DNA from: Planctomycetota bacterium
GTDB lineage: Bacteria > Planctomycetota > Phycisphaerae > SM23-33
Assembly (NCBI GenBank): GCA_012729725.1
Contig: JAAYCO010000111.1
Span: forward strand, 1-55,318
Length of the DNA: 55,318 bases
Direction: 5' to 3'
The position numbers and the translations under genes were made by a program. Each line of letters starts with the position of its first letter. The stretch's first letter is position 1. The notes beneath the pieces were generated by a model. That model worked only from the letters and a program-made list of their open reading frames with translations. It searched no databases and was not told the origin of the DNA. This document shows, one piece after another, positions 473-54,827 of the stretch.

Positions 473-863
473 GGCAGGTTGTTATGCAAGATGTGTGCCA
501 AACCTATCCTGCCGAATCTGTGGTTGTGCAACATGCTGTCAGAACACGACTTATGCCGCTTGCGAAAACTTCTTAACTGAAAAAATGCGGTGCAAGACGT
601 AGGAAGATGCCTCTGGCGGTAGGATGAAATCTCCGGCTTGAGCCCTAATCCAATGATTTAGCTTGCAGGATTATGCGCTGTGTTTTATTCTCCGATTCAA
701 GGTTGTCCGGATACAAGATGTAGAGGCTAATTAGGCATGAGGCCTAGCAGTTGTGTCCTGGTGGATTCCGGAGCTGCCTGCCGGTATCCCACGTGCTATC
801 GGAACATGGTCTGCATGGAGGCGCGCTAAGGGGCCTTCGTGTTCAGGCACTTCTTAGTAATAG
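473..863. other. Divergent intergenic region between fliK-like and activator genes
   Basis: About 390 bases separate the leftward fliK-like gene from the rightward activator gene. Apart from the sigma-54 promoter at 485-500, no coding frame with a ribosome site, no RNA gene and no obvious hairpin with a U-tract was seen. I could not assign a promoter to the rightward activator gene. Confidence 0.5.
485..500 (-). promoter_or_regulatory. Sigma-54 (-24/-12) promoter of the fliK-like gene
   Basis: On the minus strand the sequence is TGGCAC-ACATC-TTGCA, an exact match to the sigma-54 consensus with the correct 5-bp spacer. With C of the -12 element at 486, transcription is expected near 474, two bases before the ATG at 472. 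Two sigma-54 activator genes lie nearby. Confidence 0.8.
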
Positions 864-2285
864 GTGACCATGATGCACCAGGGGTCGGTAAAAGGTTTGA
901 GTTCCACGATGTTTGTGGGGCCGCAACAGTGGTCGCGCGAGCTGGTGGCCATGTTGGACGGTCGTGCAGCAGCCGTGGAAGATTTTTCCGCCGCCTTGGG
1001 CGTCGTCCTGTCACTTCAACCAAAACTCGCCGTTATATGGGGAGGACTTGATGAATCGCAGGCCCTTGCCTTCATCGGTCGTTGCCGGCAGGACAGTGCA
1101 GACACCGCCATAGTCGTCGTTGCGGATGTCCCCGACACGGCCAGTGCAATTCGCTATGTTCGCGCTGGCGCCTACGACTATCTGCCCGGTCCTCTGAATG
1201 CATCGCGGCTTAGCGAGCTGGCGACCAGCATGAATCAGCAGCAGCAATCATCCAACCAGGCTCGCTACTTCTGCCCCAACTGCCCGCCGGGCGTGAAGAT
1301 CGTCGGTAGGAGTTCCGCGGTTGTCCGCATGCTGGAGATGATAAGGATAGTCGCAGAGAGTCGCTGCAACCCGGTGCTGCTGCTTGGCGAAACCGGAACC
1401 GGCAAAGAACTCGCCGCGCGTGCAGTTCATGCCTGGCGCCACGCCAGCAGCGGGCAATTCGTGGCGGTAAATTGTGCCACCCTCACGGCGAATCTGCTTG
1501 AAAGCGAGCTTTTCGGGCACGCTAAGGGCGCATTCACCGGCGCTGACCGCGAGAAGACCGGCCTTCTGGAGCTCGCAAACGGTGGAAGCATCTTCCTGGA
1601 CGAAATCAGCGAGATGCCCATGGAGTTGCAGGCCAAGTTGTTGCGGTTCCTTCAGGAGCGGACTTTCCGAAAAGTGGGCGGAACCAAAGACATTTCATGC
1701 ACAGCCACAGTCATCGCGTCCAGCAATCTCAAGCTCTTCGACCAGGCGATGGCCGGCAAGTTCCGCAAGGACTTGTACTACAGGTTGGCGGTCGTTCCCA
1801 TCAAGATCTCCCCGCTTCGCTCCGCGGACCGACGGGACGATATACCGCTGCTGGCTGATTACTTCATCCGCTCGGATGAAAGCGTTGCGCCCGGCAAGCT
1901 TGAAGGCCTTTCTCAGGAAGCCAGGGCGGAACTGATGAGGCACGATTGGCCGGGTAACGTTCGAGAGCTGAAGAATGTAATTGAGCGCGCTTCGATATTT
2001 GAGATGGGGCGCCACATAACTGCGGCAAGCCTGATGATCGAGCGCACCGGCGAAGGCCCAAGTGGGCCGGCATCGCCGACCATGGATTTCTCTCTTGAAG
2101 CTGCAGAAAGAGAATTCATCTGCCGGGCTTTGCAGGAAACTAACTGGCAGCGCACTCGGGCGGCGTCACTGCTTGGCATAACCAGAGCGACCCTGCACGC
2201 CAAAATCAAGCGATACGACATCAAGCTGCCCGCCCAATCGGCTGCGGAAGACAAAAGCGAAAACGTATCAACAGTCCCCTCCTAG
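864..2285 (+). CDS. Sigma-54 interaction-domain transcriptional activator (FlrC/FlbD type)
   Basis: A 473-residue NtrC-family activator. Residues ~1-125 look like a receiver domain, but the position of the phosphoacceptor Asp is occupied by Trp59 (context KLAVIW), so classical phosphorylation is unlikely. Residues ~146-370 form the AAA+ domain, with Walker A GETGTGKE (~175-182), the sigma-54 contact loop GAFTGA (~222-227), Walker B FLDE and the arginine-finger stretch RKDLYYRL. The C-terminus (~415-455) is a Fis-type helix-turn-helix ending in TRATLHAKIKRY. The maximal frame starts at GTG 864; ATG 870 and ATG 873 follow a better-spaced AGGTGA. Sitting between the fliK-like gene and the flagellar operon, it probably activates the sigma-54 promoters at 485-500 and 2507-2522. 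The partner of a second activator at 5551. Confidence 0.9.
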   Translation: MTMMHQGSVKGLSSTMFVGPQQWSRELVAMLDGRAAAVEDFSAALGVVLSLQPKLAVIWGGLDESQALAFIGRCRQDSADTAIVVVADVPDTASAIRYVRAGAYDYLPGPLNASRLSELATSMNQQQQSSNQARYFCPNCPPGVKIVGRSSAVVRMLEMIRIVAESRCNPVLLLGETGTGKELAARAVHAWRHASSGQFVAVNCATLTANLLESELFGHAKGAFTGADREKTGLLELANGGSIFLDEISEMPMELQAKLLRFLQERTFRKVGGTKDISCTATVIASSNLKLFDQAMAGKFRKDLYYRLAVVPIKISPLRSADRRDDIPLLADYFIRSDESVAPGKLEGLSQEARAELMRHDWPGNVRELKNVIERASIFEMGRHITAASLMIERTGEGPSGPASPTMDFSLEAAEREFICRALQETNWQRTRAASLLGITRATLHAKIKRYDIKLPAQSAAEDKSENVSTVPS

Positions 2286-5550: not shown

Positions 5551-6951
5551 ATGCTTGAGAAACTCTGCCAAAATGTGCTGATCGCAAGTCACAATACCGC
5601 AAACGCAAGGTGTGTTCTTGAAGCCCTTGCGGCAAGAGCGGTCCGAGGCACTATGGCAACCTCGTCAGCGGCGGCAATTGCGAAGGTGGAGGAATCCGCA
5701 TGGGATATGGTGATTGCTGAAATCAGTGAGCAATCTCACTGGGACATGCTGAGGAAGATCAGGCATATCGCCCCCGAATTGCCGGTGGTGGCGGTGATTC
5801 CGGCTGCCTGCGTGGCTTTGGCGGTGAGAGCCATGCATGAAGGATGCCCCGACGTATTGGTGTCTCCACTGACGTCGGCGGCTGTTAACGCCATGCTCGA
5901 AACGATTCTTCCAACGCATGAAGCCCAGGTGGCGGCAGGCGAGGAAGACAATCATCACCTCTTTCGCATCGTCGGCAGGAGCGAGCAATTCCTTCGCACG
6001 GTCCGCCTTGTCGAGAAGGTCGCGCCGACGACCGTGCCAGTGTTGATAACGGGCGAAAGCGGCACAGGCAAGGAACTGTTGTCCTATCTGCTGCATCGCA
6101 GGTCTAACCGTCGGAAGAATCCGTACGTGCGTGTTAACTGCGCGGCCCTGAGCGAAAACCTGCTCGAAAGCGAACTCTTCGGACACGAGAGGGGCGCGTT
6201 CACCGGCGCGATTGCACGGCACAAGGGCAGGTTCGAGCGGGCTCACGGAGGCACGCTGCTGCTGGATGAAATATCCGAAACAACGCCGCGTCTGCAGGCT
6301 GAGCTGCTTCGAGTGCTGGAACAGCAGGATTTTGAGCGGGTTGGCGGCAGCGAACTTGTTCGTGTCAGCGTGAGAGTTGTCAGCACGTCAAACAGGGATC
6401 TCGCCGCGGAAGTCAAGGCAGGCCGGTTCCGCCAGGATTTGTACTACCGTCTCAGCGGCGTGCACATGCACGTGCCGTCGCTTCGCACCCGGCCAAACGA
6501 CATCGAGCCGCTTGTCTGGCACTTCGTGAACATGCACGCCGGCGAAGTGCGCCGGCGAATCAGGAGCCTCGATCCGGAAATGCTTACTGTCTTCTCGCAG
6601 TGCTCGTGGCCCGGCAACGTGCGGCAACTGCGAAGCGCCGTGCGGGCTGCACTGATACTTGGCGAAGGCCCAGTGCTTTCGCTTGATGGCGCGGAAGACC
6701 TTCGACAAGAGCTGGTCGATTGCATGATGACTGCCGGGGAGTCTGCGTCGTCAACTGCGATTGACGCATCAAGCACCCTGAGGCTTCAAGAGCTTGAACG
6801 CCACGCTGTTCTGGAGGCGCTTCGCAGGACCCGCCGAAATCAGGTCAAGGCTGCCGGCCTGTTGGGCATAACGGATCGGACGCTCAGAGAAAAGCTTCGT
6901 CGCTACCGCCAGGACGGACTTCTGGCCGCAACACAGGAGGCTTCATGGTGA
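5551..6951 (+). CDS. Second flagellar sigma-54 activator with Glu in place of the receiver Asp
   Basis: A 466-residue NtrC-family activator. The N-terminus (~8-120) follows a receiver pattern, but the phosphoacceptor position in WDMVIAEIS is Glu57, a substitution that often mimics the phosphorylated state. The AAA+ domain (~138-365) has Walker A GESGTGKE (~168-175), GAFTGA (~215-220), Walker B LLLDE and RQDLYYRL. The C-terminal Fis helix-turn-helix ends in TDRTLREKLRRYR. The gene abuts the upstream TPR gene and its end overlaps flgB, so it is made from the operon it may itself regulate. With the divergent activator at 864 it suggests a two-step or heteromeric sigma-54 switch for flagellar classes. 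Confidence 0.88.
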   Translation: MLEKLCQNVLIASHNTANARCVLEALAARAVRGTMATSSAAAIAKVEESAWDMVIAEISEQSHWDMLRKIRHIAPELPVVAVIPAACVALAVRAMHEGCPDVLVSPLTSAAVNAMLETILPTHEAQVAAGEEDNHHLFRIVGRSEQFLRTVRLVEKVAPTTVPVLITGESGTGKELLSYLLHRRSNRRKNPYVRVNCAALSENLLESELFGHERGAFTGAIARHKGRFERAHGGTLLLDEISETTPRLQAELLRVLEQQDFERVGGSELVRVSVRVVSTSNRDLAAEVKAGRFRQDLYYRLSGVHMHVPSLRTRPNDIEPLVWHFVNMHAGEVRRRIRSLDPEMLTVFSQCSWPGNVRQLRSAVRAALILGEGPVLSLDGAEDLRQELVDCMMTAGESASSTAIDASSTLRLQELERHAVLEALRRTRRNQVKAAGLLGITDRTLREKLRRYRQDGLLAATQEASW

Positions 6952-34390: not shown

Positions 34391-35716
34391 ATGGAATCAG
34401 CTTCGCAGGACACGTTAGTCGCAATCGCAAACAAAGACGCGTGGACCGCTGAAGACCATCGTGAGTTGCTAAGGCAACTCGTTTCTACGAGCGATGCGGC
34501 CAGGAAGTTCCAATCGTTGCTTGGGCAGCTGGAGTCCGCCGAGAGTCAGCCCAAAGGGACTGCTGCCCTGAAACTTGGCATTGCCCGCTACATGGCGTGC
34601 CGGTTCCAGGAAGCCCTCGACGTGCTTGCCCAGGCTACCGATAACAAGGACCGCCGCTACTTCCAGGCAATGAGCTGGAAGAATCTTCGTCGCTACGACA
34701 AGGCGGTCGAGGAACTGGAAAAGGCTAAATCAGCCGGATGGGACGCCAACGAGATAGATGTGGAAATAGCCGAAGCGCTTGCGCTTGGCGGCAAAGGCGA
34801 AGCGGCCCAACAGTTGTTGTCAAAGCTGGAGTCCAGAATAGGGCAGTCAGCGGATGTCGCCTATCTCAAAGGCCTGCTGCTCGATCTTCAGGGTCTGCAC
34901 GAAAAAGCCGCGGATGCGTACGAGCAGGCGCGAGTGGCGGATCCCCACCACACACCCGCCACCTTCCGTCTTGCATACTTCAATGATCTGCATGGAGATG
35001 AGGACCAGGCCATTGCCCTCTACAAGCAGTGCGTCAGCCGCCCGCCGATCAACGCTAACGCGCTGCTGAACCTGGCCGTCCTTTACGAGGATGCCGGTCG
35101 ATACGACCAGGCGATGATATGCCTGCGACGCGTGTTGGCCAGCAATCCGGCCAACGCGAGAGCCCGGATGTTCCTGAAGGACATAGAAGACTCCAAAACC
35201 ATGTACTTCGACGAGGACCGCGCCAAGAGGATCGCTCGCCGAAATGCGGTGATGGATATTCCGGTCACCGACTTTGAGCTGTCCGTCAGAGCCCGTAACT
35301 GTCTCAAGAAGATGAACATTCGAACCCTTGGCGACCTTGTTCGCACAAGCGAGGCCGAGCTGCTTGCATACAAAAACTTCGGCGAAACTTCGCTGAAGGA
35401 AATCAAGGACATGCTCACCGCCAAGGGCCTGCGCCTTGGCCAGCCGCTGGATGAAGAAACGCCGCCCGCCAAACCGGATGCCGAACCGGATGCCCCGTCG
35501 GCAAACGAAGGGCTTCTGGCGACGCCGATAAGTCAGATCGACTTGTCGATCCGCGCCAGAAAAGCTATTGAAGCATTGGACATCGACACGCTGGGCGATC
35601 TGGCGTCGAAGACTGAGCCCGAACTGCTTGCCTGTCGCAACTTCGGGCAGACCAGCCTGAACGAAATACGTCAACGCCTGGCTGAGTACGGCCTGAAGCT
35701 GCGAGAGCCTTCGTAG
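34391..35716 (+). CDS. TPR protein with two RNA-polymerase-alpha C-terminal-like domains
   Basis: A 441-residue cytoplasmic protein with GGGAGAGAAC before ATG 34391. Residues ~20-270 are a series of TPR hairpins (ALKLGIARYMACRFQEALDV, AYLKGLLLDLQGLHEKAADA, ALLNLAVLYEDAGRYDQAMI). Residues ~295-355 (VTDFELSVRARNCLKKMNIR, LGDLVRTSEAELLAYKNFGE) and ~378-440 (ISQIDLSIRARKAIEALDID, LGDLASKTEPELLACRNFGQ) are two copies of the helix-hairpin domain of the RNA polymerase alpha C-terminus. They could bind DNA or polymerase. To my knowledge this arrangement is characteristic of planctomycetes; its function is not established. Confidence 0.82.
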   Translation: MESASQDTLVAIANKDAWTAEDHRELLRQLVSTSDAARKFQSLLGQLESAESQPKGTAALKLGIARYMACRFQEALDVLAQATDNKDRRYFQAMSWKNLRRYDKAVEELEKAKSAGWDANEIDVEIAEALALGGKGEAAQQLLSKLESRIGQSADVAYLKGLLLDLQGLHEKAADAYEQARVADPHHTPATFRLAYFNDLHGDEDQAIALYKQCVSRPPINANALLNLAVLYEDAGRYDQAMICLRRVLASNPANARARMFLKDIEDSKTMYFDEDRAKRIARRNAVMDIPVTDFELSVRARNCLKKMNIRTLGDLVRTSEAELLAYKNFGETSLKEIKDMLTAKGLRLGQPLDEETPPAKPDAEPDAPSANEGLLATPISQIDLSIRARKAIEALDIDTLGDLASKTEPELLACRNFGQTSLNEIRQRLAEYGLKLREPS

Positions 35717-35766
35717 TCCGTGCCTGATGTCCTTCATTCCGCTCCGGCGGCAAGGGAGCCTTGGAC

Positions 35767-37050
35767 ATGGAGGTCGATCGTCAACCTGCTTCGCCGACAA
35801 AGCTAACCACATGGGCAATGGCGCTGGTTCCATTCGCCTGTCTGGTTGCTTTTTTGGCGGGGCTTCTTTCCAGCTGCGATCACCCGCAGACTATTGCGCC
35901 GGCTGAACCTCCCGCGCGACTTCCGCAGCCTCGCATCGTGCGCGTCTTGCTGACGGATCGCCCCGTTCAATCCGCTGCTTTTGGCTTCCACGGCGTTCCA
36001 TCAATCGACGGTCGGCCAGTAAAAGGTTTTAGTCGTGAGTCGCTATTTGAAGTGCGCCGCGCCAACGGCAAGTGGAATGTTGATGGCGCCGAGCTGGTTG
36101 GCGGCAGGATCGTGTTTGATTCGGGCCCAGACGGCTCGGCTGCTTACGGCAGAATGACATACAGGGGCTCGCTTCACCTGGTGGAGGCGGGTCCGGATTC
36201 GTTCAACGTCATCAACCACGTCGACATGGAGATGTACCTGGCGGGCGTGCTGCCTCGAGAGCTGTACAAGAACTGGTCGCTTGAAACATATCGAGCAGTC
36301 GCAATAGCAGCCAGGACCTTTGCGCTTTATCACAAGCTTCATTCTCCGGCAAACCGGCAGCATGATGTGGGCGACAACCAGGCTTCGCAGGTGTATGGCG
36401 GCATGAAGGCTGAGACATCCAAGAGCCGCCAGGCCGTCAGCGACACGACAGGGCAGGTGCTGGCTTACGGCCAGCAGGGCAGCGAACGCATCTTCATGGC
36501 CCAGTACTCGGCGACGAATGGGGGCGTAGTGAACGGGGCGTACGTAATTCGTGAACTCGCCCCTGACGACCGAATACCTCCGCTTCTTGGCGGCCAGAAA
36601 GATGATGACGGCAGATCCTGCCCGCGATTTTCGTGGCCAACTGTGCGAATCACCAAAGACCAGATGCACCAGGCAGTCAAGGCCAGCAAATATGCGGCGG
36701 CCAGCAGACTATGCGACATCAAGGAAATGCGCATAGCATCGCGGACTGATTACGAAAGGATAGTCTGGCTGGACCTTGTTGATTCCAAGGGCAACTGGAT
36801 GCGCCTAAGGGCGGAAGACCTTCGCCTGCTGCTTCTGTCGAATGGACCAGCGGAGGCCAAGGGCCTTAACTCCATGAACTGCTCGATTCGAGATCTTGGC
36901 GACGCTTTTGAATTCCACGATGGCAGCGGCTTCGGCCACGGCGTGGGGCTTTCGCAATGGGGCGCGGAGGACAAGGCCAAGCGCGGCTGGTCCGCTCTGC
37001 GGATACTCGACTTCTACTATCCCGGCGCGACCATCATCCGAGCCTGGTAG
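35767..37050 (+). CDS. SpoIID/LytB-family lipoprotein
   Basis: A 427-residue protein; ATG 35767 follows GGGAG at eight bases, better placed than TTG 35761. Residues ~18-38 form a signal peptide ending at LLSSC, a probable lipoprotein site. The SpoIID core shows YLAGVLPRELYKNWSLETYR with the catalytic-type Glu, AVAIAARTFALYH, the FMAQYSATNGGVVNG segment and the C-terminal signature GHGVGLSQWGAEDKAKRGWS with ILDFYYPGA. SpoIID is a lytic transglycosylase of denuded peptidoglycan; non-sporulating relatives act in cell-wall turnover or division. Confidence 0.88.
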   Translation: MEVDRQPASPTKLTTWAMALVPFACLVAFLAGLLSSCDHPQTIAPAEPPARLPQPRIVRVLLTDRPVQSAAFGFHGVPSIDGRPVKGFSRESLFEVRRANGKWNVDGAELVGGRIVFDSGPDGSAAYGRMTYRGSLHLVEAGPDSFNVINHVDMEMYLAGVLPRELYKNWSLETYRAVAIAARTFALYHKLHSPANRQHDVGDNQASQVYGGMKAETSKSRQAVSDTTGQVLAYGQQGSERIFMAQYSATNGGVVNGAYVIRELAPDDRIPPLLGGQKDDDGRSCPRFSWPTVRITKDQMHQAVKASKYAAASRLCDIKEMRIASRTDYERIVWLDLVDSKGNWMRLRAEDLRLLLLSNGPAEAKGLNSMNCSIRDLGDAFEFHDGSGFGHGVGLSQWGAEDKAKRGWSALRILDFYYPGATIIRAW

Positions 37051-43953: not shown

Positions 43954-44984
43954 TCACCGGTTTGTCGCCGCCGCTTCCCCGGGCTCTCGAACGAACCAAC
44001 TTGCCACACGGTCCCAGAACCCGCGGATATCACCCGCGGCTCCTTCCTTCTTAATCTCGCCCTGGAGCTTCGTAATGTCCTGCTCCAGCTGACGGACCTT
44101 GTCGCTCTCACTCTCGGCGATCAGGCCGCGATACAGCACCAAGTGGTTCTTGGCGATCTGAAGGTTCGCCTTGGCGGCCTCGAACCGCTCCTGCTTCACC
44201 ATCCTCTCCGCCAACTGGAGCGCATGCTGAGCGGAGACCAGCGGATCGTCTTCCTTGTTCACGGCAAACCGGATGCCCTGAGTCTGGGCCAAGACAAGTT
44301 GCGCCAGGGCATCTTCGGGTTTGTCACTGAGCAGCTTCATGCCCCGATTGATCTTGCGCTCCACATAGCCCAGATCAACGAGGACCGAGGTGTGAAGCAG
44401 TTCCGCGTCCGCCAGCCTAAGGCCGCGGATTTCTGCGGTTTCCTCCTTGGCCTCAGCGATCGGCTCGACCACTTCAACGGCGACCATGCCCTCGAACAGC
44501 GGAATGCGGTCATCCTGCACGTGGTCGACGTAGCGGTAGACTTCCTCACCCTGCGCGTCCGTCACGGTCGTTGTCACGGTGGTGGTGGGAAGAAGCTCCC
44601 GCACGACCTTGACCAGCCCGTTGCCCGCTCCAGTTCGGCCTTGGCATCGTCCGATTGCTCATCGGCAAGATTGCGAGCGGCAAGGTTAAGGTGACTGACG
44701 ACGCGTGAGGTCAGCAGAGACGCCTGGCGGAAGTCCTCCGGATTCAGTTCTCCCTCAGTCTCCCTATGGACAGTCGTCTTGTACTGCTGCCCACTGCCGG
44801 TTGTGATCGTCGTTTGCTTGGGGGCTTCGGCCGCATTGTCCGAGGCATCCTCAGCCAGCGAACACGATGCACTTGCCAAGAAGCCAATCAGGAGGAATGC
44901 GGCCAACCATCCCGTAGTCGGCCATCCGCCGCTCGTGCGGCGACGAAGCCGGCCGGCAGCTCTATTCTTGTTTCTCAAGGTCAT
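43954..44984 (-). pseudogene. YfdX-family periplasmic stress protein, interrupted by one frameshift
   Basis: Two overlapping frames make up one protein. The first (ATG 44984, strong GGGAGGTGAG) encodes a signal peptide (WLAAFLLIGFLASASC) and the YfdX beginning LTSRVVSHLNLAARNLADEQ up to ELERA near 44622. The second continues in another frame with GLVKVVRELLPTTTVTTTVT, the long helical repeat region (LVLAQTQGIRFAVNKEDDPL, ALQLAERMVKQERFEAAKAN) and stops at 43954. Adding one A near 44621 (GCAAC to GCAAAC) restores a 343-residue protein reading ERANGLVKVV. It may be a sequencing error or a recent inactivation. YfdX proteins occur in stress-tolerance loci and are linked to acid/heat tolerance. 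A weak sigma-54-like site lies about 70 bases upstream. Confidence 0.75.
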
Positions 44985-45632: not shown

Positions 45633-45648
45633 TGCAAAGTGTGTGCCA
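45633..45648 (-). promoter_or_regulatory. Sigma-54 promoter of the leftward yfdX/htrA-side unit
   Basis: Minus strand: TGGCAC-ACACT-TTGCA, exact -24/-12 consensus. Predicted start near 45622. It drives the small secreted protein and possibly the genes beyond it (yfdX to htrA), which lie on the same strand. Confidence 0.82.
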
Positions 45649-45896: not shown

Positions 45897-45912
45897 TGGC
45901 ACGCTGGTTGCA
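45897..45912 (+). promoter_or_regulatory. Sigma-54 promoter of the zinc-ribbon/HicB-like/ptsI unit
   Basis: TGGCAC-GCTGG-TTGCA, exact consensus. Predicted start near 45923, giving a leader of about 50 bases to ATG 45975. The spacer GCTGG is the same as in the dnaJ promoter at 52328. Confidence 0.83.
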
Positions 45913-46501: not shown

Positions 46502-48214
46502 ATGAAGACGCTAAAAGGCCAACCGACCTCGCCCGGCTACGCCGAGGGGACGGCCTTCGTCTACAACCGGGGGCCGGCGGGCGGCGTGCCGCGCTATCAG
46601 ATCGATCGCGACCAGGTCGATGCGGAGCACGACCGCTTTCTCCAGGCGATGGAGCGCTCCGCCGAGGAACTCCAGTCGTTGCGGTCGAAGATCAAGTCCG
46701 AGCTTGGCCAGGCCGAGGCGGACATCTTCGCGGCGCACCTTTCGCTTCTGCATGACGAATCCTTCCGGCGACGGACGCGCGAGCGGATCGATCGCGACCT
46801 GGTGAACGTTGAGCAGGCGGTGGATGCGGAAATTTCAGACCTGGCCAAGGCCCTGGAGGAGGTTGAGAACGAATACATTCGGGAACGGGCCAAGGACGTT
46901 CACGATGTCAAGCGCCGCGTGCTGAAGCACCTGGGACACGGCCCGGAAGAGGATCTCAAGAACCTGCCTCCCGGCTCGATACTGGTCGCCGCCGAGCTTT
47001 TTCCCTCGGACACGTTGGGGCTCGACCGTGAGCATGTCTCCGCCATCGTCATGGAACACGGCGGCGAGACGGGCCACGCGGCGATCCTGGCCCGTGCGAT
47101 GGGCATCCCGGCCGTGACGGGCGCTGCCCACGCGACCGAAGTCATCAAGCCGGGAGACCATGTCCACGTGGACGGCCAGAGCGGCGAGGTGACCGTCACC
47201 CCGAGCGAAGAAGCCGAGAATGCCTTTGTCTCATTCAAGGCGCGGCGGGATGACGAAGCCGCCCGCGCGGCTGACGAGTACGCCGGCCCGTGCACAACGA
47301 GAGACGGCACAACCATCCAGCTCTTGGCCAACATCAGCCGGCCGGAGGAAGCGAGTCTGCCGGAGATGGCGTCGCTTGAGGGCATTGGTCTTTTCCGCAC
47401 AGAATATCTCTTTCTCGGCCGAGCGGTGCCGCCGACGGAACGGCAGCAAGAGGAGGTCTACTCGGCCATCGCGGCGGCGGTCGCCCCTCGCCCGACGGTG
47501 ATCCGCACGCTTGACCTCGGCGGCGACAAGAAGCCGGCTTTCCTGGTCGACACGTTCGAAGCCAACCCGAACTTGGGCATGCGCGGCCTGCGGTTCTCGT
47601 TGGCCGAGAGGGAACTGTTCCAGACACAGTTGCGGGCGATCGCGCGAACAGCCCTGACCGGCAACGTGAGAGTTCTATTCCCGATGGTTCTCGGCACGGA
47701 TGACTTCTGCGCAGCGGCCGACCTGTTCCGCCAGGCCTGCCATGAGATCGAACTGGACGATGTACCGCAGATTGGTGCGATGATCGAGACCCCATCGGCC
47801 GTGTTCGAACTGGACCGCATCGCCGCCGAAGCCGACTTCCTGAGCGTCGGTACGAACGACCTGGTGCAGTACGTCCTGGCGGCTGACCGGAACACCGAAG
47901 GGCTTACCGGGCGGCTCGGGCTGCACCCGGCCATGGTCCGGGTGCTGCGGCACATTGCCGAGGGTTCTTCGACAGCCGAGAGGGAGGTCAGCGTCTGCGG
48001 CGAGCTCGCCGGCGTGTCCGATCTCGCCCGTCTGCTGGTGGGGCTGGGGTTTCGCTCGCTGAGCATGGCTCCCCGGCGCTCGCCGGCGGTGCGAAGGACG
48101 CTGTGCGAATCCGATCTGGCGGAACTGGAGGGCATCGCTCGCCGGGCCGTCCATTGCCGCAATGAGAATGAAGTGTCCAAGCTGCTTGGGACATTGGGGT
48201 CCGGCCTGTCCTGA
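46502..48214 (+). CDS. ptsI: Phosphoenolpyruvate-protein phosphotransferase (PTS enzyme I)
   Basis: A 570-residue EI. The N-terminal domain includes SPGYAEGTAFVY; the active His192 lies in MEHGGETGHAAILARAMGIP (usual GGRTSH with Arg-Thr-Ser changed to Glu-Thr-Gly). The PEP-binding barrel has GLFRTEYLFLGR, TLDLGGDKKPAF, MIETPSAVFELD, SVGTNDLVQYVLAADRN and the catalytic Cys in VCGELAGV. No GAF domain, so it is not the PtsP type. No HPr gene is adjacent; the target may be an HPr/NPr encoded elsewhere, and then the EIIA at 28438. In a stress island under sigma-54 it may act in signalling rather than sugar uptake. Confidence 0.92.
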   Translation: MKTLKGQPTSPGYAEGTAFVYNRGPAGGVPRYQIDRDQVDAEHDRFLQAMERSAEELQSLRSKIKSELGQAEADIFAAHLSLLHDESFRRRTRERIDRDLVNVEQAVDAEISDLAKALEEVENEYIRERAKDVHDVKRRVLKHLGHGPEEDLKNLPPGSILVAAELFPSDTLGLDREHVSAIVMEHGGETGHAAILARAMGIPAVTGAAHATEVIKPGDHVHVDGQSGEVTVTPSEEAENAFVSFKARRDDEAARAADEYAGPCTTRDGTTIQLLANISRPEEASLPEMASLEGIGLFRTEYLFLGRAVPPTERQQEEVYSAIAAAVAPRPTVIRTLDLGGDKKPAFLVDTFEANPNLGMRGLRFSLAERELFQTQLRAIARTALTGNVRVLFPMVLGTDDFCAAADLFRQACHEIELDDVPQIGAMIETPSAVFELDRIAAEADFLSVGTNDLVQYVLAADRNTEGLTGRLGLHPAMVRVLRHIAEGSSTAEREVSVCGELAGVSDLARLLVGLGFRSLSMAPRRSPAVRRTLCESDLAELEGIARRAVHCRNENEVSKLLGTLGSGLS

Positions 48215-48259
48215 AGCAGAATGGCAAGACTCTTCGACCCACGCAGAAACGCGAGCAAC

Positions 48260-49489
48260 CTATCGACGTTCTTCCTGCTCCTTCGAGACATGCTCATGGC
48301 TCGCGAAACTGTTCATTGAATGGCTATCGCCTGGACCTGCAAGACGCAGGGCGTCCTCCATGCTCATGGTCCCAGCCTGAACCTTCTTCAAGGCATCGAC
48401 AACGATGGGCTCGGCACCCGCCTGTCGCAAGGTTCGCAGTATCTCGGTTCGTCCAGCGCCGCGGGAAATAGCGTCACTCGCTTCTTCGCAGACGGGCGCA
48501 ACCTCGAAGACCCCGGTTCGTCCGAGATACCCGTCGCCGCCGCAGTGGTCACAGCCTCCCGCATGCGGCACCTGTTTGGGAAGCTCAAGGCCGTGTGTTT
48601 CAAACACTTCTTGATCAAGGCCGCCGGGAACTTCCATGCGAACGCATCGAGGGCATAGTCGACGCACCAGATTCTGCGCCACGATCAACCGGAGGCCGGA
48701 GCCGAGAACGTAGTAAGGCACCGAAAGGTAATGCATCGCCTGAATCGCCGACACGACGTCCCGGGCGTGAATCGTCGCCAGCACCAGTCTGCCGGCCAAG
48801 GCGGCTCGCCCGGCGATCTCCGCTGACGCCCTGTCCCGAACTTCCCCGACCAGAACAATATCCGGGTCCATCCGGAGGATGCTCCGGAGCCCTTCCTCCA
48901 TGGTCAGTCCTCGTCTCTCGTCCACCTCCACCTGCCGCACATTCGGCAGATCAAACTCGGCAGGGTCTTCGATGGAGGCCGCCACCAGGCGGTCGCAATC
49001 GAGCATGGCAAGCATCGAGTAGGCGGTCGTCGTCTTACCGGAGCCCGAGGGGCCTGCGATGAGCACGAGGCCGTGCAATCCCTCGAGGCTCTTCCGTATT
49101 GTCTCCGATTGTTCGTCATCCAGGCCAAGACGGCGCAGATCACGGTGCCATTGCGGGGGCGTCAGGATGCGAAGGTGTGCGGCCTCTCTGCGATCCGCCT
49201 TGAGCACCACGGTAGCACGTACATCGATCTCCCGGCTCTCCAGACAGCAATGAAACTGCCCTTCCCTGGGAAGAATGGACATTCCGGGTTCCATTCCTGC
49301 GGCGACCTTGAGCTGATTGACGATCTTCTGCGCTTGTTCAACCGGTATGGTCCGGCAGCGGGATATCTCGCCTTCGACGCGCATTCGCAGGATCGCGCAG
49401 TCCTCCATGTCATCCAGGTGAATGTCCGTCGCGCCCTGTCGAAGAGCCTCCTGCAGAATTTCCCTCAATGGGGCAGGCAACTCAGTCAT
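48260..49489 (-). CDS. Orphan GspE/PilB-type secretion ATPase
   Basis: A 409-residue type II/IV secretion ATPase with GGGGAGG before ATG 49489. Residues ~1-120 form the N2-like domain; Walker A is AGPSGSGKTTTAY (~145-157), the Asp box EDPAEFDLPNVRQVEVDERRG, Walker B ILRMDPDIVLVGEVRD, and the His box ATIHARDVVSAI. Residues ~275-320 hold the tetracysteine zinc motif (CPRC ... CDHCGGDGYLGRTGVFE). The N1 domain that docks to the membrane platform is absent and no other secretion or pilus gene is present. It overlaps the glycosyltransferase stop by four bases (ATGA), so it is translated with it. Confidence 0.9.
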   Translation of the reverse strand: MTELPAPLREILQEALRQGATDIHLDDMEDCAILRMRVEGEISRCRTIPVEQAQKIVNQLKVAAGMEPGMSILPREGQFHCCLESREIDVRATVVLKADRREAAHLRILTPPQWHRDLRRLGLDDEQSETIRKSLEGLHGLVLIAGPSGSGKTTTAYSMLAMLDCDRLVAASIEDPAEFDLPNVRQVEVDERRGLTMEEGLRSILRMDPDIVLVGEVRDRASAEIAGRAALAGRLVLATIHARDVVSAIQAMHYLSVPYYVLGSGLRLIVAQNLVRRLCPRCVRMEVPGGLDQEVFETHGLELPKQVPHAGGCDHCGGDGYLGRTGVFEVAPVCEEASDAISRGAGRTEILRTLRQAGAEPIVVDALKKVQAGTMSMEDALRLAGPGDSHSMNSFASHEHVSKEQEERR

Positions 49490-51873
49490 GGCCGACCTCC
49501 CCTCTCCATCCGAGCTTCCGTGTCTGCATGCCCACCCGGAGAAGGCGGCGTCAGCTTCACGTCGCCAGTGTTTTCAGCCGTTGCGGCCACCAGCGAATCG
49601 CGAGGCATGGACAAGTCTGCCTCACGCTCCAGACTCCGCACAGTCACCAAGGCGATCAGCCAGGCCAGGGTGGACTCGGCCCCCTCATTGAGATTGGGAC
49701 CGTCTGCGTGCAGGCCGTCGCGGCATCCACCGGTGTGGTAGTCATAAAGAACCGATTTCGTGTCGTTGCTGCCGAGGAACCACCCGAGGCATTGCCGGGC
49801 CCGGCTCGTCCAGCATTCCTGCCCCGTCACGCGATAGGCTTCCGCGCAGGCCTCGACCAGGGACATCACTTCTATCGGCTGTTGGTCGAATCGGGCACGC
49901 TGCCCCGATCGTGCCAGCCATCCCCGGTTGCCGATCAGGCTGACAGTGCCATCCCGTGAAACCTGGAGGTTCAATAGCCATTCCAGCGACCGCAGGCCCT
50001 GTTGTAGCATTTCTTCATTCGAAAGCGACCGTCCACAAAGAATCAGCGCATGAGGCAGTTTGGCGTTGGCGTAAGTCACGAGATCCTCACACCATGGCCA
50101 CTCGGCTGTGGCGTTCTCCTGAAAAAGCGCATACAAGCGGCCGGCCAGAACCTCCCGAATTCGTCGGGCACTCGTGTCGCCCTGGAAACGACGCAAGTAG
50201 GCGTGAATGCCCACCAGGCTGAACGCCCATGCCCGGGGCGCATCAAAGGACGTGGCCGTTTCAAGGCCCTCGTTGAACAGCCGCGTGGAGAATGACAACA
50301 AGGCGTCGTTGGGAGCCAATGCGGTCGCCAGCCCCAGAGCCCAGAGGGCCCGGCCGTGCACGTCTTCACTACCCACCTCATCCAACCAGCGCCGGTCGAA
50401 GCTCATGAAGTTCCGAAAACGCCGTGATTCATGGTTGAATGCGTAATGGAGGAACGCCAGATATGAATCCGCCAGAGGCAGGACAGAGTCATCCCCGTGC
50501 AGGTCGTAGTGCATCAGGGCAGCCGCCAGTGCCCGGGAATTGTCATCCGTACAGTACCCATGACGCCAATCCGGTACCGCGTAGATGGCGTGCTGATAGA
50601 TGCCGGTCGGGTCGGTCATACGACGAATATGCGCCAGGCTGGGCTCGGGCAGCGACGCATTCGGCTCGGTTCGAGCGCGGAAATAGAACACCGGCCGGGG
50701 GTGCTCCGCCCGCCGCCTCAGGACATCGCCGGCAAGATGGAGGTAGCTCCGGGCTACCTCCTGCCATACCATGGGCCGACACGCGAGGTATGCCTTCTTC
50801 CGTATTGCATTGCGGCTGGTGTCATCCTCAAGAAGGTGGTTTACGGTCCGTGCCAGTTCTTCCGAATCGCCAAAGGGGAACAGCCTCCCCTTGTCGTCGC
50901 TGAGCATCTCCTCGGCGTACCAGTATGGTGTGGAGATCGTCGCCTTCCCGGCTCCAAGGGCGTAGGCGAGCGTACCGGAGACGATCTGGGCCTTGCTAAG
51001 GTACGGCGTGATGTAGATGTCCGCCGCGCCGATGTAGCCGCACAACTCCTCCAGCGTCACGAACCGATTGTGAAACGCCACGTGGTCGCGAACACCCAAC
51101 TGGTCCACCAGGCGTTCGAGGGAGTCACGATACTCGCTACCATGTCTCTTCAGGATGTGCGGGTGCGTCGCGCCGAGCACAACATATACCACGTCCCGGT
51201 GGCGTTTGATGATCTGCGGCATGGCACGAATGGCCGTCTCGATTCCCTTGTTGGGCGAGAGCAGGCCGAACGTCAGCATGACCGTGCGGCCCTCTAAGCC
51301 GAACTGATCCTTGTGGAAGTTGGGGTCCACAAAAGGCACATCCGGAATGCCGTGCGGCACATGCGCGATCTTACAGGTTTCAACGCCGTAGACGTCCCTG
51401 AGAATGCTTTCGCCGTAGCGGCTCATGACAACCAGCCGGTCACTGCCAGACGCCAACTCTCGCATGACGGCAGCCTGCCCGGGCGTCGGTTGCGTCAGAA
51501 GCGTGTGCATCGTGGTAATCACTGGCATGCGCAGGCGACGAATGAACTCCAGCACATGTCGACCGTCCGGCCCCCCGTAGATGCCGAACTCATGCTGGAT
51601 GATGGCGACGTCCACCTGGTTGATGTTCAGCATGTCGGCCGCCGCCCGATAGTCCTGTGGCTGGCTGGCCTGAATCTCGAAGCGAACGTCGCCGGGATAC
51701 CGATATCCCTGGGGCCTGTCATCCAGAGCGAGAACCAGGGTTTCGCGCTCGCCCAGTTCTGCGGCGATGCCGTCCCGCAGGTCCTTCGTGAACGTCGCAA
51801 TCCCGCACTGACGGGGAACGTAGGTTCCCACCAACGCGGCCGTTTGCACTTGGCCGAATTCCGTTTGTTTCAT
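49486..51873 (-). CDS. Two-domain protein: GT4 glycosyltransferase plus alpha-barrel domain
   Basis: A 795-residue protein; ATG 51873 follows GGGAGAAG. Residues ~10-385 are a GT-B glycosyltransferase of family 4 (YVPRQCGIATFTKDLRDGIA, QHEFGIYGGPDGRHVLEFIR, TFGLLSPNKGIETAIRAMPQ, YLSKAQIVSGTLAYALGAGK). Residues ~410-765 are helical repeats like an alpha/alpha-barrel glycosidase (HAIYAVPDWRHGYCTDDNSR, FRNFMSFDRRWLDEVGSEDV, GRALWALGLATAL, HADGPNLNEGAESTLAWL). In related bacteria this fusion is found with mannan-type glycoside phosphorylases; none is present here. It could make a protective glycan. It heads the leftward sigma-54 unit that ends with the GspE-like ATPase. Confidence 0.85.
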   Translation of the reverse strand: MKQTEFGQVQTAALVGTYVPRQCGIATFTKDLRDGIAAELGERETLVLALDDRPQGYRYPGDVRFEIQASQPQDYRAAADMLNINQVDVAIIQHEFGIYGGPDGRHVLEFIRRLRMPVITTMHTLLTQPTPGQAAVMRELASGSDRLVVMSRYGESILRDVYGVETCKIAHVPHGIPDVPFVDPNFHKDQFGLEGRTVMLTFGLLSPNKGIETAIRAMPQIIKRHRDVVYVVLGATHPHILKRHGSEYRDSLERLVDQLGVRDHVAFHNRFVTLEELCGYIGAADIYITPYLSKAQIVSGTLAYALGAGKATISTPYWYAEEMLSDDKGRLFPFGDSEELARTVNHLLEDDTSRNAIRKKAYLACRPMVWQEVARSYLHLAGDVLRRRAEHPRPVFYFRARTEPNASLPEPSLAHIRRMTDPTGIYQHAIYAVPDWRHGYCTDDNSRALAAALMHYDLHGDDSVLPLADSYLAFLHYAFNHESRRFRNFMSFDRRWLDEVGSEDVHGRALWALGLATALAPNDALLSFSTRLFNEGLETATSFDAPRAWAFSLVGIHAYLRRFQGDTSARRIREVLAGRLYALFQENATAEWPWCEDLVTYANAKLPHALILCGRSLSNEEMLQQGLRSLEWLLNLQVSRDGTVSLIGNRGWLARSGQRARFDQQPIEVMSLVEACAEAYRVTGQECWTSRARQCLGWFLGSNDTKSVLYDYHTGGCRDGLHADGPNLNEGAESTLAWLIALVTVRSLEREADLSMPRDSLVAATAENTGDVKLTPPSPGGHADTEARMERGGRP

Positions 51874-51987
51874 GCTGTCTTCTCCCGGCGTTTACATCCG
51901 TTGGTCCAGCCCATAGAGAAGCGGGAGCGGCGCTCAGGCGGGGGAGACCTTCGCACCGCTCCCATTGCCTGCGGCCATCTACTGGGC

Positions 51988-51997
51988 GGGGGGGGGG
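51988..51997. repeat. Run of ten G in the glycosyltransferase leader
   Basis: Ten consecutive G on the plus strand (C on the leader mRNA). Tracts of this length are prone to slippage; here it lies outside the coding region, between promoter and start. Confidence 0.8.
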
Positions 51998-52141
51998 ACC
52001 CAGTGCTCAAGGGCCGCAGGTCTTTCGGCCTGCGGTTCAATTGTGGGTTCAGCTCAAAGCTCCGCCCGTAGCCCGCAACATCCCTTCTGCGCGGACCTCG
52101 TATCGACCCTGGATCATCAGCTATGTCTTCTCCCGGCGTCC

Positions 52142-52157
52142 TGCAAGCTTTGTGCCA
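52142..52157 (-). promoter_or_regulatory. Sigma-54 promoter of the glycosyltransferase/GspE-like unit
   Basis: Minus strand: TGGCAC-AAAGC-TTGCA, exact consensus. Predicted start near 52131; leader about 258 bases to ATG 51873, longer than for the other units. Confidence 0.82.
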
Positions 52158-52232
52158 GCGAAGACGGCTTGGCATTAGGATTCGGTCTGGCCGCAACTTA
52201 CGGTGGTCTGGCGTGAGCCTGGCAGGCGGAGG

Positions 52233-52251
52233 TTCTGTCAAATTGGCAGCA
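52233..52251. promoter_or_regulatory. Shared activator site of two divergent sigma-54 promoters
   Basis: TTCTGTCAAATTGGCAGCA, matching 16 of the 18 specified bases of the ideal palindrome. The centre is 111 bp from the predicted start of the leftward promoter (52131) and 112 bp from that of the rightward promoter (52354), so one bound activator could serve either side. Confidence 0.68.
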
Positions 52252-52327
52252 GAACTCCATGAAGTTGCCCTTCTGCGATTGCAGTAACCGCTTGTTCGAG
52301 CAGAGGCTGTGCGCATCGCCTCGGCGC

Positions 52328-52343
52328 TGGCACGCTGGATGCA
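52328..52343 (+). promoter_or_regulatory. Sigma-54 promoter of the dnaJ-like gene
   Basis: TGGCAC-GCTGG-ATGCA, one mismatch (first base of the -12 element). The -24 element and spacer are identical to the promoter at 45897. Predicted start near 52354, 89 bases before the ATG. Confidence 0.75.
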
Positions 52344-52442
52344 GGGCGCATCAAGAACAGAGGCTGCGCGCTGCAAGCGCACTTCTGGCTGCCGGACGCC
52401 GAGGCGCTGGTCTTTGTGGTTGCAGATGAAGGGGGCTGAGCA

Positions 52443-53135
52443 ATGGCGAAAAACTACTATATCATTCTGGGAGTTAGCGAGGCCGCTACGCAGGCTGAAA
52501 TCAAGCACGCATACCGGGCCAAGGCACGCAGACTGCATCCGGACGCCTCAGGGCAGGAGGCGGGGCCTTTCCTGGAGGTGCAGGAAGCCTATGAAGTTCT
52601 TGGCGACCCGGGCCGGCGAAGCGAGTATGACAGGTCGCGAGAGGTCGGCAGAACAGCGCGCGTCACCGGCGGCCGGGCACCCGGTTCGCGTCGGCCTCCG
52701 GTCGAGCCGCTGGAACAGGGAGCGGCCGCACGAGACCCAGAGGTTTCGCTGACGCGCTCGTTCCAGACCTTTCACCCGTCGTTCGACGACATTTTCGAGC
52801 GCCTGTGGGCCAACTTCACGTGCCGCTCCCGGCCCAAGGGCGAACGAGCGGAGGGGCTGACCGTCGACGTTCCGATCGACCGCGAGGATGCGAGAGCTGG
52901 CGGACAGGTTCGAGTGCTCGTTCCCGCCGCGCGCCGGTGTCCGACGTGTGGCGGCCGGGGAGGCGTCGGCTTCTTCGAGTGCTTCCGTTGCGGGGGCACC
53001 GGCCAGGTCAGAGGCGAGTTACCTGTACTGGTTCCCTTTCCGCCCGCTACCCCGGATGGCCATACGGTCAGCATCTCCCTGGGAAATCTGGGCATCCGGA
53101 ACCTGTACTTGACGGTCAGGTTTTACGTCGTGTGA
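52443..53135 (+). CDS. Short DnaJ-like co-chaperone
   Basis: A 230-residue protein. Residues ~4-65 are a J domain (YYIILGVSEAATQAEIKHAY, AKARRLHPDASG with the HPD motif). After a Pro/Arg-rich linker (~70-135), the C-terminal part has VDVPIDREDARAGGQVRVLV and only two of the four CxxCxGxG zinc repeats (CPTCGGRG, CFRCGGTG), then a single substrate-domain remnant (VSISLGNLGIRNLYLTVRFY). It is much shorter than DnaJ (~375) and probably stimulates a DnaK encoded elsewhere. It is monocistronic under a sigma-54 promoter and convergent with three hsp20 genes. Confidence 0.88.
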   Translation: MAKNYYIILGVSEAATQAEIKHAYRAKARRLHPDASGQEAGPFLEVQEAYEVLGDPGRRSEYDRSREVGRTARVTGGRAPGSRRPPVEPLEQGAAARDPEVSLTRSFQTFHPSFDDIFERLWANFTCRSRPKGERAEGLTVDVPIDREDARAGGQVRVLVPAARRCPTCGGRGGVGFFECFRCGGTGQVRGELPVLVPFPPATPDGHTVSISLGNLGIRNLYLTVRFYVV

Positions 53136-53282: not shown

Positions 53283-53831
53283 TCACTTGACCTCGATTTG
53301 CTTTACGGCCTTGCGCCCGGCCTCGCTCTTGGGGATGGTGACCGTCAGCTGGCCGTTCCTGCAGTGGGCCTCCACGCCGTCGGCGTTGACCTCTACCGGC
53401 AGCGGGATGGTCCGGTGGAACGAGCCGCTGTAGGTCTCCATCAGGTGATAGTCTTTCTTCTTTTCCTCTCGCTCGGTTGTCTTTGAGCCCCGGATCGTGA
53501 GGCTGTTGTCGCCCACGGTGACTTCCATGTCCTCGGCTTCCATTCCGGGCACCTCGGCGGTGATCTTGAACGCGTCGTCCGTCTCCTCCAGGTCAACACG
53601 AGGCCAATCCGTGCCGAGCAGGTCTGTCGTGCCGGCCAGCGGAGCAAGCCAGCGGTCACCGAATCGCCTGCCGAAGAAGTCCTCAAACATGTCTTCGAAC
53701 AGGGAGCGGACATCCTCGCGCCGAGCCGGCAACTTCGACTCGCGCCGCTGATCGTGGACACGCACGGGGCGCTTGCCCCAGTTCCAAGGCATCAGTTCCT
53801 TCGCTCTTTGTGTCAAGTCTTTGACAGTCAT
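53283..53831 (-). CDS. Small heat-shock protein Hsp20, copy 1
   Basis: A 182-residue sHsp with AAGGAGGTG before ATG 53831. The N-terminal ~75 residues are basic with FEDMFEDFFGRRFGDRW. The alpha-crystallin domain (~78-170) includes PRVDLEETDDAFKITAEVPG, MEAEDMEVTVGDNSLTIRGS, FHRTIPLPVEVNADGVEAHC and NGQLTVTIPKSEAGRK; the C-terminal KQIEVK provides an I-x-V type tail motif. Third gene of the operon. ATP-independent holdase for unfolding proteins. Confidence 0.94.
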   Translation of the reverse strand: MTVKDLTQRAKELMPWNWGKRPVRVHDQRRESKLPARREDVRSLFEDMFEDFFGRRFGDRWLAPLAGTTDLLGTDWPRVDLEETDDAFKITAEVPGMEAEDMEVTVGDNSLTIRGSKTTEREEKKKDYHLMETYSGSFHRTIPLPVEVNADGVEAHCRNGQLTVTIPKSEAGRKAVKQIEVK

Positions 53832-53849: not shown

Positions 53850-54251
53850 CTACCCGGCCTTGACTTCAATGCGCTTCTGGCTGGGCCTGGTCTTGGGAAG
53901 CGTCAGTGTCAGCACACCGTTGTTCATGCGGGCGTCGATCTTGTCCCTGTCGATCTCATCCGACAGGGCGAACGACCGCTGATAGTTGCCGACCTCGTAT
54001 TCCGCATAGGCGGCCCCCGGATCGCTGCGATGCTCTTCGGCGACGGTCCCGCGAACCGTCAGGACATCGTTCTCCAGCGTGACATTGACGCAGTCGACCT
54101 TCACGCCGGGCATGTCGGCCGTCAGCACGATGCTTTCGTTGGTCTCGCGGATGTCCGTCGGCGGAAGGAACACCCGGCCCTGCTGCGTCGGTTCGACGCC
54201 CCGCTGCATCTGGGTTTCCCGCTTCTTCTGGATATCCTTTGTCTCAGCCAT
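53850..54251 (-). CDS. Small heat-shock protein Hsp20, copy 2
   Basis: A 133-residue sHsp with AGGAGGTG before ATG 54251. The N-terminal arm is short (~30 residues, Gln/Arg-rich). The alpha-crystallin domain shows PPTDIRETNESIVLTADMPG, VKVDCVNVTLENDVLTVRGT, YQRSFALSDEIDRDKIDARM and NNGVLTLTLPKTRPSQKRIE. A tail of only a few residues follows (RIEVKAG, again with an I-x-V motif). Second gene in the operon; clearly diverged from its neighbours, so this is an old rather than recent duplication. Confidence 0.94.
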   Translation of the reverse strand: MAETKDIQKKRETQMQRGVEPTQQGRVFLPPTDIRETNESIVLTADMPGVKVDCVNVTLENDVLTVRGTVAEEHRSDPGAAYAEYEVGNYQRSFALSDEIDRDKIDARMNNGVLTLTLPKTRPSQKRIEVKAG

Positions 54252-54293: not shown

Positions 54294-54725
54294 TCAGCTC
54301 TGTACCGTAATCTGCTTGGGCTTGTCGGCTTCGCTGCGCTGGAGCTGCACCTTCAGCACCCCGTCGCGACAGCTCGCCTCCACCTTGTCCGCGTCCACGG
54401 CAAAGGGCAGGTCGACACTGCGCGTGAACTGGCCGAACGCCCGCTCGCGACGCAGCCACCGCTCATCGTCGGCTCCCTCGGGGGCCTTTCGCTCCCCTCG
54501 AAGCACCAGCGTGCGGTCTCGAACGGAGATGTCCAGGTCCTTCGGCTCCACACCCGGAAGCTCAGCCGTCACGGTCGCGCCCTCATTGTCCGTGTAGACG
54601 TTCACGGGCGGAAAGGTCGCGCCGACCGGGCTGGCGACATCGCCGAACAGCCTGCTCATCTCGCGTTCCATCTCCCGCAGCCTCTGCCACGGATTCCACC
54701 AGCCTTGCCATCCGAAACCGTTCAT
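54294..54725 (-). CDS. Small heat-shock protein Hsp20, copy 3
   Basis: A 143-residue sHsp, first of three in the leftward operon, with AGGAGGTG before ATG 54725. N-terminal arm: WQGWWNPWQRLREMEREMSR. Alpha-crystallin domain (~38-135): FPPVNVYTDNEGATVTAELP, GVEPKDLDISVRDRTLVLRG, FGQFTRSVDLPFAVDADKVE and RDGVLKVQLQRSEADKPKQI, with tail ITVQS. The aromatic N-terminal arm differs from copies 1 and 2, suggesting different clients or mixed oligomers. The operon is controlled by the sigma-54 promoter at 54812-54827. Confidence 0.94.
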   Translation of the reverse strand: MNGFGWQGWWNPWQRLREMEREMSRLFGDVASPVGATFPPVNVYTDNEGATVTAELPGVEPKDLDISVRDRTLVLRGERKAPEGADDERWLRRERAFGQFTRSVDLPFAVDADKVEASCRDGVLKVQLQRSEADKPKQITVQS

Positions 54726-54811: not shown

Positions 54812-54827
54812 TGCAACAGACGTGCCA
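54812..54827 (-). promoter_or_regulatory. Sigma-54 promoter of the triple hsp20 operon
   Basis: Minus strand: TGGCAC-GTCTG-TTGCA, exact consensus. Predicted start near 54801, giving a leader of about 75 bases. No CIRCE inverted repeat or obvious sigma-32-like promoter was seen, so this is probably the main control. Confidence 0.83.

Follow-up and report, generated by a model that had tools for sequence, protein, structure and literature searches.

What is a GspE-type ATPase gene doing directly behind a glycosyltransferase (GT) gene, in a window (the whole stretch of planctomycete DNA analyzed, 55,318 nucleotides) where no gene for type II secretion, a platform, a pilin, or a secretin was seen? 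A sequence-only reading had described this arrangement, including the lack of such neighbors, and the description holds: the two open reading frames overlap by an ATGA on the minus strand. It had also placed both genes after one sigma-54 promoter, in agreement with the perfect site TGGCACAAAGCTTGCA found ~270 nt ahead of the GT gene. Two roles were offered for the ATPase, namely, powering the export or assembly of a glycan product and recruitment for another purpose. The relevant features are as follows.

48260..49489, minus strand: GspE/PilB-core ATPase gene, 409 aa, N1-less, tetracysteine module retained (PF00437, AlphaFold2/Foldseek, clade placement)
49486..51873, minus strand: GT4 glycosyltransferase fused to an (alpha/alpha) barrel, 795 aa, upstream of the ATPase gene and translationally coupled to it (PF00534/PF13439, Foldseek)
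49486..49489, minus strand: overlap of GT stop and ATPase start, ATGA, 4 nt (sequence)
52142..52157, minus strand: perfect sigma-54 site of the GT-ATPase unit
52328..52343, plus strand: divergent sigma-54-like site TGGCACGCTGGATGCA, one mismatch, ahead of the J-domain gene
52443..53135, plus strand: J-domain protein (DnaJ), divergent neighbor of the GT-ATPase unit (PF00226)
53283-53831, 53850-54251, and 54294-54725, minus strand: three Hsp20 genes (PF00011 for the first and third; purpose-built profile for all three)
54812..54827, minus strand: perfect sigma-54 site ahead of the Hsp20 genes
46502..48214, plus strand: PTS enzyme I-type PEP-utilizing protein (PF05524, PF00391, PF02896)
45897..45912, plus strand: perfect sigma-54 site ~590 nt ahead of the enzyme I gene
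45633..45648, minus strand: perfect sigma-54 site ahead of a minus-strand small secreted-type ORF and further genes
485-500, minus strand: perfect sigma-54 site at the left edge of the window
864-2285 and 5551-6951, plus strand: two sigma-54 activators near flagellar genes (FliF, FliI-type ATPase, and others)

The sigma-54 stress island

The ATPase gene sits in a sigma-54 stress island together with the three Hsp20 genes, DnaJ, and PTS enzyme I. Five perfect sigma-54 sites were observed in the window against 0.11 expected; these 55 kb hold five of the eight perfect sites of the 3.2-Mb draft genome, and one of the three outside the window precedes ClpB. At the sequence level, the constituents of a sigma-54 regulon are all present, i.e., −24/−12 sites together with rpoN and activators in the same genome, and no sigma-70-type site was found in the region from 48100 to 52500. 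The GT and ATPase genes are likely one transcription unit from the sigma-54 promoter. The site of this unit and the divergent site ahead of the J-domain gene together form an imperfect inverted repeat, and the site at 45633 to 45648 is followed on the minus strand by the small secreted-type ORF, two unassigned ORFs, and DksA-like, radical SAM, and DegP-like genes. Mis-binning of the contig is not favored, because in tetranucleotide composition it resembles the other larger contigs of the genome (r of 0.90 to 0.96 against own-genome contigs of ≥9 kb, compared to 0.61 to 0.84 against other genomes).

Hsp20 and DegP-like genes also share one region in the transmissible locus of stress tolerance of Proteobacteria (PMC8290217). 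Unlike that locus, the window has no identified ClpG/ClpK and no YfdX by Pfam, and its sigma-54 sites, GT, and GspE-type ATPase set it further apart. Two overlapping minus-strand ORFs of 136 and 216 aa (43954-44984), which look like one frameshift-broken secreted protein, resemble YfdX by eye, with no Pfam match.

The glycosyltransferase and conservation of the pair

The barrel half of the GT is of the cellobiose-2-epimerase/YPO2471 type. In Foldseek searches with the GT model (moderate confidence), the first half matched MshA/PimB and the second half matched YPO2471 and cellobiose 2-epimerase. The usual GT4 EX7E motif (residues about 296 to 304, from alignment to PimA) is not conserved; Gln296 and Tyr304 are invariant in this GT family, and sugar transfer is putative. 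The GT leader contains a 16-nt direct repeat (51876-51891 and 52124-52139, 248 nt apart) with a GC-rich hairpin and a run of G between the copies, and the 248 nt flanked by the repeat are possibly an insertion.

N1-less proteins of the bare type to which the ATPase belongs were found in 22 of 397 genomes of the class, which is probably Phycisphaerae, and in one genome of another class of the phylum (G533). A search for the pair in other genomes, the check proposed by the sequence-only reading, never found the two together, which is one of the outcomes named there as refuting. GT genes were absent from all 23 orthologue loci (22 class loci plus that of G533, some of them short contigs), and no ATPase of the window kind lay near the five GT homologues examined (57 to 63% identity). 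In four of these five, a GH130 phosphorylase gene adjoins the GT; the window genome has GH130 genes as well, at places other than the GT locus. A conserved GT-ATPase pair is accordingly rejected: the arrangement itself is real, and it is confined to the window genome. Since the pair is not conserved and the GT homologues keep company with GH130, the GT is a candidate stress-regulated glycan enzyme in its own right, and the ATPase gene may simply happen to fill the slot downstream of a separate stress enzyme.

The same results weaken the proposal that the ATPase is a dedicated motor by which whatever the GT makes is exported or assembled. Translational coupling and the common sigma-54 promoter speak for such a motor, but with no co-occurrence elsewhere this part of the earlier interpretation is left unsupported, and we regard it as very improbable. 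We know of no GspE-type ATPase that exports glycans.

A planctomycete clade apart from canonical PilB/GspE

PF00437 spans residues 8 to 382 of the ATPase (E 9e-84). The motifs of a GspE, which had been recognized beforehand, are all there: Walker A (GPSGSGKTTT), Walker B (ILRMDPDIVLVGEVRD), the Asp box (SIEDPAE), the His box (TIHARD), and a cysteine quartet (C279/C282/C313/C316) that is invariant across orthologues. Zinc coordination by the tetracysteine module is essential in EpsE of Vibrio cholerae (PMC5061722). The N1 domain for GspL docking had been reported missing from the window protein, and it is truly absent, since the open frame 5′ of the start has room for ≤28 extra residues; AGGGGAGGT is found upstream of the start codon. 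No Usp domain was detected in the protein by Pfam. The AlphaFold2 model (pLDDT 87) gave its best Foldseek matches with the cores of Thermus PilF and Geobacter PilB (TM of ~0.84, ~31% identity), which are the closest solved folds.

Comparison with known ATPases separates the protein from each of them. With GspE it shares the N2 and C-terminal ATPase domains, the Walker A/B motifs, the Asp and His boxes, and the tetracysteine module, but it has no N1 and no Gsp neighbors, carries clade-specific residue changes, and scores 291.5 bits against the GspE equivalog TIGR02533 (cutoff, 630.25). In contrast to PilB/PilF, it has no MshEN/N1 region, scores 292.4 bits against the PilB equivalog TIGR02538 (cutoff, 675.65), and lies apart from the PilB/GspE side in the trees. 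ComGA, a short competence ATPase, is N1-less too; the window protein is similarly short but remains below the ComGA profile cutoff (NF041000; 198.9 bits, cutoff of 300).

Trees were built with PilB/GspE proteins of the window genome, best matches of kin genomes, and sequences of other phyla. The 23 bare orthologues and 15 proteins of a Usp-fused branch were split from 56 other PilB/GspE sequences with an SH-aLRT of 100, and the same split had 100/100 support in a reduced, careful tree. The window protein grouped with the bare orthologues (SH-aLRT of 99; 100/99 in the careful tree). Grouping with PilB/GspE of its own genome, in the form of the PilB of a complete pilus locus the other refuting outcome named by the sequence-only reading, was rejected for both L001 (AU P of 1.6e-9) and L004 (AU P of 7e-52). 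Seven sites that are invariant in 55 canonical sequences carry shared replacements in the bare and Usp branches (R to Q59, R to F72, D to E76, S to T93, H to R/K234, N to R/Q243, and R to A251), while catalytic residues and cysteines are retained across the clade. The window protein has Q59, E76, T93, R234, R243, and A251, with Ile instead of Phe at position 72. A long-branch artifact joining the two branches was checked against by means of these shared residues and the reduced tree. The window ATPase is a member of a monophyletic Planctomycetota clade apart from canonical PilB/GspE and not a stray copy of either.

These data also bear on another functional explanation, an ordinary extension ATPase of type IV pili or type II secretion that works in trans with standard parts, its N1 loss and sigma-54 setting being incidental. 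The core is canonical, and at scattered places outside the window the genome encodes five or more full-length PilB/GspE proteins and several platform proteins (PF00482). However, five full-length ATPases are already present, the window protein groups with none of those tested, and its separate clade, shared replacements, and scores far below both the PilB and GspE cutoffs make an ordinary motor improbable. The other role proposed earlier, recruitment to a different purpose, is likely.

The 21 other class genomes with orthologues (42 to 48% identity, mostly short frames; 397 genomes searched) did not include any of the 34 same-family genomes searched, and no relatives were found among viral contigs. 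Among the bare orthologues, a sigma-54 site or chaperone neighbors occur at the window copy only, and sigma-54 control as a general trait of the group is rejected. The link of the bare branch to stress is consequently drawn from one genome and from the sister branch.

Usp-fused relatives and proposed roles of the ATPase

A contig scan with the orthologue alignment returned, among the matches listed, mostly canonical PilB/GspE together with a fusion protein from a Schlesneria MAG (L118), the nearest outgroup of the bare branch, in which a Usp domain (PF00582, residues 3 to 131) precedes the GspE core. Close relatives of L118 are present in 17 of 170 genomes of the Schlesneria-type family, and Pfam confirmed the Usp plus T2SSE architecture in eight examples, L118 included; the 5′ end is cut off in three contigs, and in G885 the Usp is a separate upstream gene. 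The Usp domain takes the position of N1 in the fusions, most of which show the nucleotide motif G-2X-G-9X-G(S/T). These fusions and the window ATPase have in common the replacements at the seven sites and a sigma-54-linked stress setting, but the latter lacks the Usp domain, and its gene follows that of a GT. In the phylum-wide sample no Usp fusion was found at an E value of 1e-88, with few candidates scored per genome and absence therefore not proven. Nothing relevant to a Usp-GspE or Usp-PilB protein appeared in the open-access literature searched, which is weak evidence of novelty, and the branch is apparently undescribed.

The genes of the Usp-GspE branch are embedded in sigma-54-linked stress clusters. 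Their neighbors are mostly further Usp, sigma-54-activator, kinase, Hsp20, or DegP genes. Relative to 15 control loci (the surroundings of canonical GspE genes in kin genomes), the 16 Usp-branch loci contain 38 Usp domains, fused ones counted (controls, 0), and differ in the presence of sigma-54 activators (7/16 versus 1/15) and histidine kinases (8/16 versus 0/15). Sigma-54-like sites lie ahead of Usp genes in several loci; in G901, the Usp-GspE gene is preceded by a double Usp gene and, before that, by a small gene, all of them downstream of a perfect site; Hsp20 and activator genes lie farther upstream. Weak sites as a whole are not much denser than in the controls, and for this reason only placed sites count. 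No platform gene was found in the Usp-branch loci.

The main rival to the reading preferred below, a stress-induced motor, is a stress-signaling or energy-sensing ATPase that drives no filament. Its hexamer would read the ATP state, in the sister branch through Usp, and control other processes, by analogy with the Myxococcus pilus ATPase PilB, which controls exopolysaccharide independently of pilus assembly (PMC5544727). Apart from this precedent, a signaling role is suggested by the location of Usp at the N1 position, by the nucleotide motif, by the lack of platform genes in the Usp-branch loci, and by the loss, throughout the clade, of residues that never vary in canonical motors; these changes might affect contacts within the hexamer or with the platform and would in that case speak against the driving of a platform. 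Nevertheless, no catalytic motif of a working motor is missing, and prepilin and PilZ genes adjoin some bare orthologues, so that we consider a non-motor role unlikely, if well worth weighing. In four orthologues from one genus-level group, a gene for an N-methylated prepilin lies within ~150 nt downstream and a PilZ gene lies on the opposite side, and the orthologue of G160 has a prepilin gene <1 kb away; these amount to two independent cases, against ~0.7 expected from the density in the same loci.

We tentatively prefer, at close to an even chance, an extension-motor variant that is induced by stress and works in trans on a pilus or secretion platform. Under stress, sigma-54 and an activator would switch on the GT-ATPase unit, and the ATPase would assemble as a hexamer, hydrolyze ATP, and engage a PilC/GspF-type platform encoded elsewhere in the genome. 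It might thereby replace the regular PilB/GspE or modulate it, bypassing the c-di-GMP or GspL input that usually arrives via N1. GspE receives its GspL input through N1. In MshE-type ATPases, c-di-GMP input is likewise through N1 (PMC5013675). A platform in trans is supported by the several PF00482 genes of the genome, by the prepilin and PilZ neighbors of some orthologues, and by a GspF/PilC-type platform gene on contig C195 (L225:2104-3078, minus strand) that has no adjoining secretion ATPase and is a possible partner of the window ATPase.

More broadly, it is conceivable, though we would wager somewhat against it, that the clade represents a class of ATPases for stress responses that has not been described before. 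Its members would be GspE/PilB-type hexamers with N1 replaced by Usp or lost, expressed from sigma-54 stress regulons and acting outside regular secretion systems as stress- or energy-gated motors or signaling ATPases. If so, Usp in place of N1 within stress clusters would tie the energy or stress state of the cell to the motor of a surface machine, and the poorly understood Usp family would gain a definable effector.

The genome encodes a second N1-less GspE-type ATPase of ~380 to 400 aa on contig C75 (L006; L117:7279-8418), which adjoins platform genes, is 28% identical to the window ATPase, and falls outside the bare/Usp clade. Elsewhere in the window, the 441-aa product of a plus-strand gene (34391-35716) combines TPR repeats with two C-terminal domains of the RNA polymerase alpha type, and another gene (35761-37050, plus strand) encodes a SpoIID-domain protein, unexpected outside endospore formers.
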